Part shown: positions 27,153-61,775 of the stretch, in pieces | Numbering within the stretch: position 1 is the first letter of the stretch | Layout of the letters: every line of letters begins with the position of its first letter | From: Bacteroidia bacterium | GTDB lineage: Bacteria > Bacteroidota > Bacteroidia > 2-12-FULL-35-15 | Reading direction: 5' to 3' | Assembly (NCBI GenBank): GCA_030654175.1 | Contig: JAURXZ010000024.1 | Span: 310,001 to 374,000 of the forward strand | Length of the DNA stretch: 64,000 nucleotides | Program-made: the position numbers and the translations under genes | The notes under the pieces: generated by a model | Databases searched by the model: none | Told to the model about the DNA's origin: nothing | The model's input: the letters and a program-made list of their open reading frames with translations, nothing else

Positions 27153-29636
27153 CTATTCCTGATAATAAACCCTTTTTACTCTTCTTGAAACATTGGTTAA
27201 TATTTCATAAGGAATTGTTCCAACATCCTTTGCAACCTCTGTGATGGGATAGGCTTCACCAAAAACGATCACTTCATCATTTTCACTCGCATTAATATCG
27301 GTTATGTCGATCATGCACATATCCATGCATACGTTGCCGATAATAGGAGCATATTTACCGTTTACGATCATTTTCCCTTTACCACCGCTAAGTTTGCGGC
27401 TCAACCCATCGGCATACCCTATTGGTACGGTAGCTATTTGTATGTCGCGGGTTGCGATTCCTTTCCGGCTATAACCAATGGTTTCGTTTGCAGGAATATT
27501 TTTTATTTGAGAAATACTGGTTTTTAATGTGCTTACATTTTGCAGTTGGCTCTGTTCTGAAGTGCCGGCTCCAATGCCATATAATCCAATGCCCAGGCGC
27601 ACCATATCAAATTGTGCATCAGGAAAACGGGTAATGCCGGCCGAATTTAATATATGTTTCATAATTGGATAAGTGAAATGTGATTTTATTTTTTCACTCA
27701 TCTCATTAAATCGTTTTATTTGTTGCCATGTAAAATCATCGTGTTCACTTTCATCTGTTGCAGCTAAATGTGAAAAAACGGATTTTACGGTAAGATGTTT
27801 ATTGTTTTTGATGCGGACGATCAGTTCATTTACTTCGTCCGGATCAAAACCTAAACGGTGCATGCCAGTATCCAGTTTGATGTGTATAGGGATAGGGTGG
27901 TCGCTGTCGTGCTCGCTTCGTTTTAATGTTTCTTCAAATAAACTTAACACACGGAAACTGTAAATTTCGGGCTCCAGGTTGTATTGAAGCATTGAATCAT
28001 AGCTTTGCTCCTCAGGATTCATCACCATTATTGGCATGGTGATCCCCGCTTTACGCAATTCAATACCTTCATCGGCATAAGCGACAGCTAAAAAATCAAC
28101 ACGGTGAAACTGAAGTATATTGGCTATTTCAAAGCTTCCGCTCCCATACGAAAAGGCCTTTACCATGGCCATTATTTTGGTGTCCGATTTAATTTTTGCA
28201 CGAAAATAATTCAGGTTGTGAACGATCGCATTCAAATTAATTTCCAAAACCGTTTCATGTGCTTTTTGTTGAATAATTTTACTGATTGCTTCAAAGCCGA
28301 AGGCTCTGGCGCCTTTCAATAAAATAGTTTCGTCACGAAAAAACGAATTATTAAATTCTTTTAAAAATTCATCGGTTGATCTGTAAAAAGTTTTTTCAAC
28401 ATCAAATTGTTTTGTTTGGTTGGAAATGCCATCTCCAATTCCGATCAGGCGTGAAACCCCCTTTTTGTGGATCAACTCGGCCACCTCTTTATAAAGTGTT
28501 TCTTCATTCCGGCCGCTTTGTAAAATATCCGAAAGTATAAGTGTCTTTTTGGGATGCTGTTTTTGCTGATTTAAAAAATCCAGCGCTATGGCCAACGAAC
28601 CTAAATCGGAATTATAACTATCATTGATGATGGAGCAATTGTTGATGCCTTCTTTTAATTCCAACCGCATTGCTATTGGGCTCAAAAAGCGCATGCGTTC
28701 TGCTATTACAGGGTTCTCATAACCTAAGTAAAGCAGCATTGCCCAACAGTGGATAGCATTTTCGATGCTTGCCTCATCGGTAAAAGGAATATTGATTTGG
28801 ATGAAATCATTTTTGTAGATGCCCTGAATTTTTGTGTCAGCAATGCCTTTAGTGATACGCCCTACCAACAGGTCGGAACGAAGCTTGCGCGACCACGAAA
28901 AAACTTGTAGGTCCTTAAATGCTTTGTTTATAGTGATTTCATTGTGTACTAATAAATAATCTTTGCAATAGATCAAGACTTCTGAATTAACGAAGAGCTT
29001 TAATTTTTCGTCTACCTTTTGCTTTTGATTTTCAAAATTTTCATCATGCGCCTGCCCTATGTTGGTTATCAATCCAATGGTTGGCTGAATGATGGCTTCA
29101 AGCAAACTCATTTCCTGTGTTTTTGAAATACCGGCTTCAAAAATACCCAGTTTATTCTCTCCGGTTATTTGCCAAACAGAAAGAGGAACACCCACCTGTG
29201 AGTTAAAACTTTTTGGACTGCGCACAATGTTTTTGTCTTCACGCATTAATTGATACAGCCACTCTTTAACAATTGTTTTTCCGTTACTTCCCGTAATACC
29301 AATAACCGGAATTTTAAATTGTTTACGATGAAAGGCGCACAAATATTGCAAGGCAAGTAGTGTATCTTTTACCAATAAAAAAACCGAATTATTGAAGACA
29401 GCATTGTTTTGCGGCAAAGATGAAACTACAAAATGACGTACACCTTTTTCATACAGATCAATTAAATACGCATGGCCATCATGACGTTCGCCTTTAATGG
29501 CAAAAAATAAAGATGTCTCCGCATTGCTGAGTTTGCGGCTATCTATCAGCAGGTTTTTGATCGCAGTGTTTGTATTGCCATTGCCGCTGGTGCTTGCATT
29601 AATTACGGTAGCAATGGTTGAGATAGTATGGTTCAT
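27153..29636 (-). CDS. Bifunctional MurF ligase / alanine racemase
   Basis: An 827-residue fusion typical of Bacteroidota. The N-terminal part is UDP-N-acetylmuramoyl-tripeptide:D-Ala-D-Ala ligase, with the ATP loop GITGSNGKTIVKEWL near residue 115 and later NDSYNSDLGSLAIALDFL. The C-terminal part is a PLP-dependent alanine racemase beginning near residue 465 (ETVLEINLNAIVHNL). Its PLP lysine lies in KIMAMVKAFSYGSG, the catalytic Tyr in ETIGYSRKGIA, and VCMDMCMIDITD is a family block. Joining the two activities links D-alanine supply to its use in peptidoglycan precursors. Tdk follows upstream on the same strand with 53 bases between. Confidence 0.96.
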   Translation of the reverse strand: MNHTISTIATVINASTSGNGNTNTAIKNLLIDSRKLSNAETSLFFAIKGERHDGHAYLIDLYEKGVRHFVVSSLPQNNAVFNNSVFLLVKDTLLALQYLCAFHRKQFKIPVIGITGSNGKTIVKEWLYQLMREDKNIVRSPKSFNSQVGVPLSVWQITGENKLGIFEAGISKTQEMSLLEAIIQPTIGLITNIGQAHDENFENQKQKVDEKLKLFVNSEVLIYCKDYLLVHNEITINKAFKDLQVFSWSRKLRSDLLVGRITKGIADTKIQGIYKNDFIQINIPFTDEASIENAIHCWAMLLYLGYENPVIAERMRFLSPIAMRLELKEGINNCSIINDSYNSDLGSLAIALDFLNQQKQHPKKTLILSDILQSGRNEETLYKEVAELIHKKGVSRLIGIGDGISNQTKQFDVEKTFYRSTDEFLKEFNNSFFRDETILLKGARAFGFEAISKIIQQKAHETVLEINLNAIVHNLNYFRAKIKSDTKIMAMVKAFSYGSGSFEIANILQFHRVDFLAVAYADEGIELRKAGITMPIMVMNPEEQSYDSMLQYNLEPEIYSFRVLSLFEETLKRSEHDSDHPIPIHIKLDTGMHRLGFDPDEVNELIVRIKNNKHLTVKSVFSHLAATDESEHDDFTWQQIKRFNEMSEKIKSHFTYPIMKHILNSAGITRFPDAQFDMVRLGIGLYGIGAGTSEQSQLQNVSTLKTSISQIKNIPANETIGYSRKGIATRDIQIATVPIGYADGLSRKLSGGKGKMIVNGKYAPIIGNVCMDMCMIDITDINASENDEVIVFGEAYPITEVAKDVGTIPYEILTNVSRRVKRVYYQE

Positions 29637-30471: not shown

Positions 30472-31836
30472 ATGGATAAGTTCAATGTCAGAAAGGAGAT
30501 TGCGGCTTTGCGGGTCTTATTCATTTTTTTGTTTTCTTCTTTCATCGGTCCATCCGTTTTTGCACAGGAAAATAAAGGAGAAGTTTATCAATATGCCCGA
30601 AAGATTGTTGATACAATGGCTTCAAAAAGCATGCACGGGCGTGGCTATGTAAATGATGGAGATAAAATTGCTGCCAATTATATCCGGTCGGAATTTAAAA
30701 AGTTGGGATTAAAACCGTTCAAAGATGATTATTATCAACCCTTTACTTTTTCGATCAATACATTTCCCGATAAACTGGAATTAAAATTTAACTTGTCAGA
30801 TAAAAGCAATAAGAATTTTAATTTTACCGGAATTGCAGGAAAAAATTATTTAGTAGAGCCATCTTCACCAGGTATTTCTGCGGATTATTCTTTAGACGTT
30901 TTTGATTCTACCAATGCGCTTTGTAATAGAACATTTAGAAAATTTGTTAGAAGAACCGTCAAAAATCAATTTATTCTGATTGATGACAGAGGCGTTACTG
31001 ACAAAAAAAAACTAGCTTATTTTAGTAAGATAAGATTAAACCCTAGTTCGGTAGCGGGAACAATTGAAGTAGTAAAAAAGTTGACATGGAGCCAATCTCA
31101 AACGGTTTCAAACTTTGTGAAAATTCGGATATTAGCAGACAGCTTTAATTACAATGGTTATAGAAAAGCGGAGGGTGGAGGTGGAATAGTAATAGAAAAT
31201 AAATTCATCCCCAACTATCAATCTCAAAATACCATTGGCTATGTTAAAGGGTCCGAGCAACCCGATTCATTTATTGTTTTTTCGGCCCATTACGATCACT
31301 TAGGGCAAATGGGTAAAGATGCTTATTTCCCGGGCGCCAATGATAACGCAAGCGGTTGCGCGATGTTACTTAACCTTGCAAAATATTATTCTATCCCACA
31401 AAACCAACCAAAATATTCTATTGCCTTCATGGCGTTTGGCGCTGAGGAGGTTGGTTTGCTTGGTTCTAAACATTATACCGAAACTCCGTTGTTCCCGCTC
31501 AACAGCATTCGGTTTTTATTGAATATGGATATTATGGGAACCGGAGAGGATGGCATTACCGTGGTAAATGGTTCTGTTTTTAAAGAAGAGTTCGACAATC
31601 TGGTAAAAATAAATGTGAAAAACAGTTTTATCAAAGATGTAAAAATACGGGGAAAAGCGGCCAATAGCGACCATTATTTTTTTTCAGAAAAAGGTGTAAA
31701 AGCCTTTTTTATCTACACCATGGGTGGAATAAAAGCGTATCACGATATTTACGATAGAGCAGAAACATTACCTTTGAATGAATTTGAAGATATGTTTAAA
31801 TTGATAATGTCATTTAGTACATATCTACAAAATTAA
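30472..31836 (+). CDS. Exported M28-family zinc aminopeptidase
   Basis: A 454-residue exported peptidase with a signal peptide (hydrophobic RVLFIFLFSSFIGPSVFAQ). The di-zinc M28 motifs are seen in order: SAHYDHLGQ, PGANDNASGCAMLL, FMAFGAEEVGLLGS, LNMDIMGTGEDG and SDHYFFSEKGVKAFFIYTMG. These supply the His, Asp, Glu-Glu, Asp and His ligands. A PA-like insert lies between residues 120 and 250. There is no T9SS sorting domain, so it may be periplasmic. It probably digests peptides. Confidence 0.92.
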   Translation: MDKFNVRKEIAALRVLFIFLFSSFIGPSVFAQENKGEVYQYARKIVDTMASKSMHGRGYVNDGDKIAANYIRSEFKKLGLKPFKDDYYQPFTFSINTFPDKLELKFNLSDKSNKNFNFTGIAGKNYLVEPSSPGISADYSLDVFDSTNALCNRTFRKFVRRTVKNQFILIDDRGVTDKKKLAYFSKIRLNPSSVAGTIEVVKKLTWSQSQTVSNFVKIRILADSFNYNGYRKAEGGGGIVIENKFIPNYQSQNTIGYVKGSEQPDSFIVFSAHYDHLGQMGKDAYFPGANDNASGCAMLLNLAKYYSIPQNQPKYSIAFMAFGAEEVGLLGSKHYTETPLFPLNSIRFLLNMDIMGTGEDGITVVNGSVFKEEFDNLVKINVKNSFIKDVKIRGKAANSDHYFFSEKGVKAFFIYTMGGIKAYHDIYDRAETLPLNEFEDMFKLIMSFSTYLQN

Positions 31837-31908
31837 TAAAAGTGACAGAGATTTAAAATGGAGAGATTATGAAATTTGTGCAGCAACAAATAAAATTGCA
31901 GCCGAATT

Positions 31909-31941
31909 AATTCCCCCTTGAAAAGGGGGGTAGGGGGGATT
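31909..31941 (+). repeat. C/G-rich palindromic repeat, copy 1
   Basis: The element reads ATTCCCCCTT-G-AAAAGGGGGG followed by TAGGGGGGATT. It has a short hairpin plus a trailing G tract. Two other copies lie at 32353-32383 (inverted) and 61562-61592 (same orientation). This copy lies about 45 bases upstream of the DUF559 start codon. Confidence 0.85.
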
Positions 31942-31986
31942 AAAAGTGCAAGTTATTAAATAGGATAAATTCATAAACCCATCGCA

Positions 31987-32385
31987 TTGAAAAAACCTTT
32001 CGTGGATTATAATTTAGATTTAAAAGCGGATTCGCGCCTTTTAAGGAATAATTCCACTTTATCAGAAGTGCTTTTATGGAAAAAATTACGCGCAGGAAGT
32101 ATGATGGGGTTCAAATTTAACAGGCAAAAACCTCTTGGAAATTATATTGTTGATTTTTATTGTAAACCATTAAATTTGATAATTGAAATTGATAGAAGTA
32201 GTCACGATAATAAATATGAAAAAGATTGTTATCGCCAGAAGGAGTTAGAAAAACTAGGGTTTACCGTATTAAGATTTACAGATTTACAAGTGAAAAAGGA
32301 TATGAATAATGTAATTAGAGGAATTGAGATTTGGGTTAATGAAAACAAAAAGAATCCCCCTAACCCCCTTTTTAAGGGGGAATGA
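31987..32385 (+). CDS. DUF559-family nuclease-like protein
   Basis: A 132-residue protein of the DUF559 family, a fold related to very short patch repair and PD-(D/E)xK endonucleases. The family pattern is clear: LRNNSTLSEVLLWKKLRAG, MGFKFNRQKPLGNYIVDFYC, LNLIIEIDRSSHD, then LEKLGFTVLRFTD. The conserved Glu-x-Asp of the family sits in IIEIDRSSH. The start is a TTG at 31987. The last residues, NPPNPLFKGE, are encoded by the inverted palindrome copy at 32353-32383, and another copy lies upstream, so the gene is bracketed by repeats. Function is unknown; it could be a repeat-associated mobility or repair nuclease. Confidence 0.85.
   Translation: MKKPFVDYNLDLKADSRLLRNNSTLSEVLLWKKLRAGSMMGFKFNRQKPLGNYIVDFYCKPLNLIIEIDRSSHDNKYEKDCYRQKELEKLGFTVLRFTDLQVKKDMNNVIRGIEIWVNENKKNPPNPLFKGE
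32353..32383 (-). repeat. C/G-rich palindromic repeat, copy 2
   Basis: Inverted relative to copy 1. Read on the minus strand it is ATTCCCCCTT-AAAAA-GGGGG followed by TTAGGGGGATT. It overlaps the last codons of the DUF559 gene and so defines its C-terminus. The gene plus both repeats spans about 475 bases. Confidence 0.85.
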
Positions 32386-32443
32386 ATTCATCCATAATAA
32401 CAAGAACACAGCTTAAAGATGAAATGAAGGAATAAATAAATCT

Positions 32444-33115
32444 ATGAAACTATACATTGTACCTACACCTATTGGAAACCTTGAAGATATCACCCTTCGA
32501 GCGATTCGTATTTTAAAAGAGGTGGACCTGATATTAGCTGAAGATACGCGTAAATCCGGCATTCTTTTAAAACATTTAAATATTACAAAAAAGATGTTTG
32601 CGCATCATATGCACAACGAACATAAAACGGCAACAATGATTGCCGACCGCATTGCAAGCGGTGAAAGCATAGCATTAATAACGGATGCAGGCACCCCCGC
32701 TATTTCTGACCCCGGATTTTTATTGGTGCGTGAGTGTATAAAAAAAGGGATAGAGGTAGAGTGTTTGCCTGGTGCAACAGCATTTGTGCCGGCTTTGGTC
32801 AATTCAGGTTTGCCAAGTGATTCATTTTGTTTTGAAGGTTTTTTACCTCAAAAAAAAGGGCGACAGACAAAAATTAAATCATTAGTGAGTGAACCGCGCA
32901 CGATGATTTTTTATGAATCTCCACATCGCCTGGTAAAAGCACTGGAGCAGTTCATAGAGTTTTTTGGTGCTGATAGAAAAGCTTCCGTTTCCCGTGAACT
33001 TACCAAGATGTTTGAAGAAACAAAACGTGGTACTTTACAGGAAATTCTGGATTATTTTAAAGAAAAAACAATTAAAGGTGAAATTGTGATCGTATTGGAA
33101 GGCAATAAAAATTAA
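32444..33115 (+). CDS. rsmI: 16S rRNA 2'-O-methyltransferase RsmI
   Basis: A 223-residue SAM-dependent enzyme that methylates the ribose of C1402 in 16S rRNA. It shows the tetrapyrrole methylase-like N-terminus LYIVPTPIGNLEDITLRAIR, then LILAEDTRKSGILLKHL, TDAGTPAISDPGFLLV and PGATAFVPALVNSGLPSDSFCFEGFLP. The length is slightly short of the proteobacterial form because the C-terminal extension is reduced, which is common in this phylum. The stop codon lies at the edge of the inverted repeat before corA. Confidence 0.96.
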   Translation: MKLYIVPTPIGNLEDITLRAIRILKEVDLILAEDTRKSGILLKHLNITKKMFAHHMHNEHKTATMIADRIASGESIALITDAGTPAISDPGFLLVRECIKKGIEVECLPGATAFVPALVNSGLPSDSFCFEGFLPQKKGRQTKIKSLVSEPRTMIFYESPHRLVKALEQFIEFFGADRKASVSRELTKMFEETKRGTLQEILDYFKEKTIKGEIVIVLEGNKN

Positions 33116-33226
33116 TTTTACAATTTTTCCAATTTGTCAGTAGGCAATTTGTCTCCTTGAATAATTGTATGCCGTAAAATTGTTAAAGTTGATTTGTAAA
33201 ATTGCCTACTGAAAAATTGTAAAATT
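33114..33226. repeat. Imperfect inverted repeat between rsmI and corA
   Basis: AATTTTACAATTTTT (33114-33128) and CAGTAGGCAATTT (33138-33150) pair perfectly with AAATTGCCTACTG (33199-33211) and AAAAATTGTAAAATT (33212-33226). The arms cover nearly the whole intergenic region and overlap the rsmI stop codon. The right arm carries one copy of the TTGCCTACTG repeat. Confidence 0.75.
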
Positions 33227-60725: not shown

Positions 60726-61775
60726 ATGGAAATCACCCAAATACAACAACCGAAATTCACATCTTTAATTGACCTTGCCTCCGAACGCCTCGGTGGTAAA
60801 GCACTTGTATGTAGCGATGATTTTTTTGCGGAAAAAGAAAATTTATTAAAACCGGGAAGGGGTATTTTTATCACTGATAAATATACCGATAGAGGAAAAT
60901 GGATGGATGGCTGGGAATCGCGCAGGAAAAGAACTCCGGGATATGATTGGTGTATCATTAAACTTGGAGCGTCCGGAATTATTAGCGGATTGGACATAGA
61001 CACCAACTTTTTTTTAGGAAATCATCCGCCTTTTGCATCTGTAGAAGCATGCAATATGGCAGAAGATCCTTCTGCTGAATTGTTACAATCCGAAAAAGCG
61101 GGGTGGGTTGAAATAGTATCCAAATCACCTTTAAATCCGGGAAGTCAGAATTTTTTTGAAATTACAAACGATAAGATCTGGACACATTTACGATTGAATA
61201 TTTATCCTGATGGTGGAGTGGCCCGCTTAAAAGTATATGGCGAAGTGTATAAAAACTGGGATGCCGTAAAACAGGATCAATTGGTTGATCTGGCTTCAGC
61301 CGTGAATGGTGCGAAATCTGTTTTGTGTAATGATATGTTTTTTAGCCACATGGATAATTTAATTATGCCGGGTAGAGGTGCTAACATGGGTGACGGGTGG
61401 GAAACCAAACGAAACAGAACACCCAATAATCGTGATTGGGTAATTGTAAAACTGGCGCACAAAGGGGATATTAAAAAAATATTGGTGGATACCTGTCATT
61501 TTAAAGGTAATTACCCCGATACCTGTTCTATTGAAGGAATAAATTTAGAGGATACAAATTTATTCCCCCTTTCAAAGGGGGCCAGGGGGATTGATTTAGG
61601 TTCTCCTGATTTAAAATGGACAGAAATTTTGCCTAAAATGAAATTACAAGCAGACCATGAACATTATTTTGAAACAGAGATTTCAAATGCCGGTGCGTTT
61701 ACTCATGTTCGTTTGAACATCTTTCCTGATGGCGGAATCAGTCGTTTGCGTTTATTTGGTTTTATAAATAAATAA
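60726..61775 (+). CDS. alc: Allantoicase, with an in-frame repeat insertion
   Basis: A 349-residue enzyme that splits allantoate to ureidoglycolate and urea. It has two homologous halves: LIDLASERLGGKALVCSDDFFAEKENLLKPGRG, and LVDLASAVNGAKSVLCNDMFFSHMDNLIMPGRG. Each then has DGWE(S/T)-R-RNRTP and a DW-x-I-x-KLG/AH block. The end has HEHYFETEIS and THVRLNIFPDGGISRLRLFG. Codons at 61560-61592 (residues 279-289, LFPLSKGARGI) come from the C/G-rich palindrome shared with the DUF559 locus. The insertion is in a loop before the WTEIL strand and keeps the frame. Confidence 0.95.
   Translation: MEITQIQQPKFTSLIDLASERLGGKALVCSDDFFAEKENLLKPGRGIFITDKYTDRGKWMDGWESRRKRTPGYDWCIIKLGASGIISGLDIDTNFFLGNHPPFASVEACNMAEDPSAELLQSEKAGWVEIVSKSPLNPGSQNFFEITNDKIWTHLRLNIYPDGGVARLKVYGEVYKNWDAVKQDQLVDLASAVNGAKSVLCNDMFFSHMDNLIMPGRGANMGDGWETKRNRTPNNRDWVIVKLAHKGDIKKILVDTCHFKGNYPDTCSIEGINLEDTNLFPLSKGARGIDLGSPDLKWTEILPKMKLQADHEHYFETEISNAGAFTHVRLNIFPDGGISRLRLFGFINK
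61562..61592 (+). repeat. C/G-rich palindromic repeat, copy 3, inside alc
   Basis: ATTCCCCCTTTCAAAGGGGG (61562-61581) followed by CCAGGGGGATT. It matches copy 1 and the reverse of copy 2, with an 8-base stem around a single base. It is translated in frame within allantoicase. Confidence 0.88.

Follow-up and report, generated by a model that had tools for sequence, protein, structure and literature searches.

DUF559 nuclease genes bracketed by inverted hairpins: a probable small mobile element in many bacterial phyla

Why should a small nuclease gene lie between two inverted copies of the same C/G-rich palindrome? The question is raised by a locus in the window (the whole 64,000-nt stretch of Bacteroidia DNA that was analysed), where an open reading frame (ORF) of 132 aa with a TTG start (31987-32385, + strand) lies between a left end at 31904-31943 (- strand; hairpin ATTCCCCCTTGAAAAGGGGG, with an additional GGGGG half-site towards the gene) and a right end at 32353-32389 (+ strand; half-site CCCCCT with hairpin CCCCCTTTTTAAGGGGG). 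These hairpins are of the CCCCC..GGGGG type and are inverted copies of each other, their 34-nt arms (31904-31937 and 32356-32389) being 91% complementary with 418 nt between them, and a 31-nt match to the right-hand copy, found once in the window, was seen in none of 100 shuffles. The ORF product is a DUF559 protein (PF04480; 115.1 bits, E-value 1.8e-33, curated cut-off 20.6) and gave no match to Y1 in the Pfam scan. The initial annotation, which had described a nuclease gene framed by inverted palindromes, is thus borne out, as is its claim that the second copy supplies the last codons of the gene: the right end encodes the tail NPPNPLFKGE, the C-terminus (...KNPPNPLFKGE) falling inside the hairpin. 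The third copy that it placed inside alc is likewise there, a lone palindrome at about 61562-61592 (- strand), in frame within an allantoicase-like ORF (60726-61772) that reads ...NLFPLSKGARGIDLG... across it. The left and right neighbours, a gene for an M28-type peptidase (30472-31836, + strand) and rsmI (32444-33115, + strand), define the insertion site in relatives, one of which (G261) has the sequence GCAGGATTAATTCCCCCTTGAAAAGG at the position of the left end. Elsewhere in the window, an imperfect inverted repeat unrelated to the C/G palindrome is located between rsmI and the next ORF (33115-33224), and a single 827-aa ORF (27153-29636) looks like a MurF-alanine racemase fusion.

The window alone, with only three copies, could be read as chance proximity or as an assembly artefact, and the whole genome is more informative. 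A genome-wide count with a strict pattern found the window palindrome, whose predicted clustering at DUF559 genes was at issue, in only five copies in 5.1 Mb, two of which bracket the window gene; with five copies, chance alone would be expected to give about 0.002 pairs closer than 500 bp. Of DUF559 genes this genome has just two, and both are bracketed by palindromes, the second (C19:74236-74553) by a different one, CCCCTCTCC(n4)GGAGAGGGG, which occurs in 18 copies genome-wide (about 0.03 pairs closer than 500 bp expected by chance). The rarity of the window palindrome in the genome had not been foreseen, nor had the old age of the window insertion, to which we return below.

The arrangement extends far beyond this genome. 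Loci collected by protein or profile search alone, blind to repeats, included 193 DUF559 domains with usable flanks (132 free-standing and 61 in-frame, the loci being phylogenetically redundant). An inverted pair scoring at least 30 was found at 131 of these 193 domains but in only 4 of 1522 control windows (0.26%), which were shifted windows from the same loci, and it was found in both classes (92/132, or 70%, of free-standing and 39/61, or 64%, of in-frame domains). Pyrimidine-first hairpins, i.e., those with a C-rich 5' arm, were present on at least one side of 181 domains (94%), leaving 6% of DUF559 genes without a qualifying hairpin, and on both sides of 130 (67%), whereas the corresponding figures for 841 control windows were 16 one-sided (2%) and 0 both-sided. 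Hairpins of the opposite polarity were not enriched around the 193 domains, and 231 of the 233 hairpins extracted were pyrimidine-first. Next to 89/233 of these hairpins (vs. 24/1150 with shuffled flanks) the outer arm is present once more; this additional copy faces the gene in most free-standing elements (62:10) and lies externally in those that are in frame (16:1). The hosts of bracketed genes include Bacteroidota, Neomarinimicrobiota, Nitrospirota, Ignavibacteria, Brevinematales, Magasanikbacteria and others, and bracketing is also seen in 9 of 16 DUF559 genes carried on plasmids (Alphaproteobacteria, Deinococcus, cyanobacteria). By eye, a DUF559 gene of Neisseria gonorrhoeae (L335:2650-3665), probably related to the solved NGO0050 (3hrl), is flanked by copies of a similar hairpin that are direct repeats holding CCCTCTCCCTGTGGGAGAGAG, not inverted ones. 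The both-sided counts in domains and controls rule out chance, and many cases come from contigs that are long or near-complete, which leaves chance or artefact with a practically negligible probability. The gene and its two palindromes probably form one small mobile element, of whose family the copies consisting of a hairpin only would be gene-less derivatives.

If the hairpins belong with the nuclease, the two should vary together, and they do. Hairpin and nuclease sequences covary (Mantel r 0.41; the largest value in 2000 permutations was 0.086), palindrome similarity being 0.26 at <35% nuclease identity and climbing to 0.75 at >70%. Part of this covariation is shared ancestry of whole elements, as a unit of inheritance predicts. 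At the level of genomes, a CCCCT-type palindrome is present in 32 of the 124 genomes of the class with DUF559 and in 3 of the 123 without (odds ratio 13.9, p 6e-8, uncorrected for phylogeny), and the palindrome is therefore not equally common where the nuclease is missing, as it would have been were the two unconnected. It is extremely unlikely that DUF559 is a passenger and that the palindromes are mobilised by a different enzyme, for example a Y1/RAYT transposase. Y1_Tnp genes are indeed common in these genomes, and a solo copy of the window palindrome has an IS200-like one (G000, C27; L003:2593-3024) at a distance of ~1.1 kb, but the palindrome was found in 2/68 genomes with Y1 only as against 31/106 with both Y1 and DUF559, and none of 19 Y1 genes had hairpins on both sides (2/19 had one on one side). 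On these counts we rejected Y1/RAYT as the main mobiliser, and a Y1 mover would also leave the covariation of DUF559 and palindrome unexplained.

What kind of enzyme is DUF559? The AlphaFold model of the window protein (pLDDT 86) has a Vsr-like PD-(D/E)XK fold, which matches 3hrl, the homing endonuclease I-Bth0305I (3r3p; Foldseek TMt 0.77) and, weakly, Vsr (1vsr). Six catalytic-type residues (E16, D45, E56, D58, H62 and D69) are near-invariant, being conserved in 99-100% of 195 domains, and are kept in the window protein; in its predicted fold, and probably in these residues, DUF559 resembles the EDxHD homing endonucleases, and one DUF559 gene has been termed EDxHD-family in the literature (PMC9403480). 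The window protein has an Arg where Gly is 98% conserved, its two orthologues retaining the Gly, and this copy, substituted at a near-invariant glycine, may be inactive. The window gene has evolved under purifying selection (dN/dS 0.11 vs. G261). Such selection would suit a nuclease that serves its host, by Vsr-like mismatch repair or by policing palindromes, with the hairpins acting in regulation or termination, and so would the Caulobacter DUF559 protein VsrA, which affects the SOS response and for which very short patch repair has been proposed (PMC12907096). We nevertheless consider a host-serving role very unlikely as an explanation, for it would not lead one to expect matched inverted ends, a patchy distribution, several copies in a genome or in-frame inserts in unrelated enzymes. 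Regulatory hairpins leave the in-frame copies unexplained, and a reading of the palindromes as terminators only is rejected because copies of them lie in frame in ORFs.

About 60 DUF559 domains sit in frame within ORFs (330 to 1400 aa long), and in most of these ORFs both flanks of the domain read as one known protein. The interrupted proteins, named by reading conserved motifs and not by profile scan, include LeuRS (in two loops), MetH, Acs, RecJ, MutS, RecG, methylmalonyl-CoA mutase, IleRS, HsdR and others. A single frame spans both hairpin ends in 35 of the 39 bracketed in-frame cases, and the LeuRS carrying an insert is the only LeuRS in all 22 genomes examined. Many in-frame copies have, after the left palindrome and before the DUF559 core, a YHTTD...W..L stretch. 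With the nuclease and hairpin paired in many phyla, and often in frame in essential genes, the whole therefore looks like a widespread, very small mobile element.

The strongest rival is homing, in which the nuclease would cut the uninterrupted allele at a conserved site and be copied by homologous repair, while the palindromes would be structural or tolerated and have no role in recognition. That its closest characterised fold is an EDxHD homing endonuclease, the name already given to a DUF559 gene, argues for it, as does the repeated occupation of some host loops, those of LeuRS, MetH and Acs being filled in different families (these recurrent sites could reflect homing-like specificity or merely tolerant loops). 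In the tree of the domain, however, almost every in-frame copy belongs to a single group in which host sites are mixed, with 18 changes, and MCM and LeuRS inserts are sisters within one family; the tree was built on few columns and its forks are therefore uncertain, but the mixing implies that elements have changed sites, including between unrelated ones. Homing would predict neither this, nor that the hairpin sequence covaries with the nuclease, nor that gene-less solo and doublet copies exist at many unrelated sites, and the remote Vsr-like relatives in phages, which are thereby ruled out as general hairpin carriers, had no hairpins (0/19). Homing as the whole explanation thus seems unlikely, and it may be part of the mechanism.

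The histories of individual sites are best followed by comparing relatives, as had been proposed, and a single site was indeed seen with the full element, with a deleted one, with a hairpin only and empty. The window site is full in G000, G261 and G262, holds relics or lone palindromes in five relatives and nothing in ten; the insertion in the window is an old one, inherited vertically since before the split from two relatives. The Acs loop of one genus is empty in G059, G015 and G189, contains a solo palindrome in G159 (+39 nt) and G128 (+27 nt) and the full element in G216 (+498 nt), all these lengths being multiples of three. The RecJ site is full in G015, G159 and G096 and empty in G128 and G189, and the MetH site of one genus is found in full, in-frame internally deleted, solo, eroded and empty forms. 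The empty sites of solo copies are mostly too diverged to give exact ends. The one clean case is solo copy L018, where G261 reads CCCCTTTCT-CTTT-AGAAAGGGG and, in G000, a 51-nt ACCTC...GAGGT element stands in place of the 4-nt hairpin loop; at this site there is loop replacement, and no target-site duplication was recognised. Six solos (L011, L013, L017, L018, L022 and L023) appeared by eye to be nested in the loop of a GGGCGTTCCCCTTTCT..AGAAAGGGG repeat, like stacked palindromes.

Gene-less copies can be tied to gene-bearing ones by their ends, the mark of an autonomous/MITE pair. In genus g1, the solo units of G193 carry GCAGGATC at the foot of the hairpin, as do both ends of the nuclease-bearing L054/L148 element. 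G093 has inverted hairpin doublets ~40 nt apart without a nuclease remnant, some of which carry AGTTAGCTGGCATTTCCTGA, as do nuclease-bearing elements of that genus. Solo copies could, alternatively, be decay products only, rather than independently mobile units. Upstream of rsmI in L150, two palindromes face each other and TTGATTAACGAA comes after each of them, perhaps as a duplicated flank.

How might such an element work? Judging from sequence, we infer that its movement is driven by the nuclease. The element would be ~0.5 kb long (its exact ends are approximate) and consist of a hairpin end, the DUF559 nuclease gene and an inverted hairpin end, (i) the Vsr/EDxHD-type nuclease recognising the cognate hairpin ends and/or nicking or cutting the target, for which hairpins or their loops are likely candidates, (ii) host repair copying the element into the target and (iii) the stop-free ends and gene allowing inserts to survive inside genes. 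Hairpin-only copies, whether single or in inverted pairs tens of nt apart, would derive from the nuclease-bearing family, and the window copy would be an old insertion between the M28 peptidase gene and rsmI.

Several known systems invite comparison. The initial annotation had likened the locus to the RAYT/REP arrangement, with a PD-(D/E)xK-type protein in place of Y1, and since the association holds both for whole genomes and for the flanks of DUF559 genes, this layout is real and general across DUF559 loci. As in RAYT and REP/REPIN systems, a small enzyme gene is flanked by inverted palindromes, which track their enzyme, also occur solo and as inverted doublets and are occasionally found in frame within genes, like REPs (PMC3733652). 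However, whereas RAYT is a Y1 HUH transposase, the DUF559 enzyme is a nuclease with a predicted Vsr/EDxHD fold. The repeat here begins with CCCC and frequently has one more CCCCT half-site (no GTAG or CGTC tag was seen at the foot of the DUF559 hairpins read by eye), and it is the gene-bearing element itself that inserts in frame in essential genes. Because the defining Y1 transposase is absent, this is not a member of RAYT/REP. With I-Bth0305I the elements share the fold of the catalytic domain and a selfish-looking occupation of conserved genes, but they have hairpin ends, shift between unrelated sites and leave gene-less palindromes, and no intron or intein was recognised around DUF559, the ~0.5-kb inserts leaving little room beside the nuclease. 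Vsr and Caulobacter VsrA have the same fold and domain, whereas the genes described here are palindrome-bracketed, often intragenic and multi-copy. MITEs and Rickettsia palindromic elements are also short gene-less palindromes inserted in frame inside genes, but here there is a candidate gene-bearing parent in the same genus. No earlier link between DUF559 and palindromes was found in the open-access papers searched, and we file the DUF559 element as a new variant among palindromic mobile repeats with a dedicated enzyme, or as a new class if nuclease-driven movement holds. The fullest version of this idea, to which we give an even chance, is a new class of transposable elements, spread over ten or so phyla, whose Vsr/EDxHD-type nuclease moves DNA that has pyrimidine-first hairpins at its ends, inserting it in frame (perhaps into hairpin loops) and giving rise to many orphan REP-like palindromes.

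Many families of palindromic repeats in bacteria have no known mobilising enzyme, as a 2013 survey says of CGTC REPs (PMC3733652), and with a nuclease family that follows such palindromes from phylum to phylum, the identity of the mobilising enzyme becomes directly testable. The element would also account for odd proline/glycine-rich tails and inserts in annotated proteins (NPPNPLFKGE, LTPNPSPKERG), and it presents us with a nuclease gene sitting in frame, with no splicing domain recognised, inside the sole copy of an essential enzyme.
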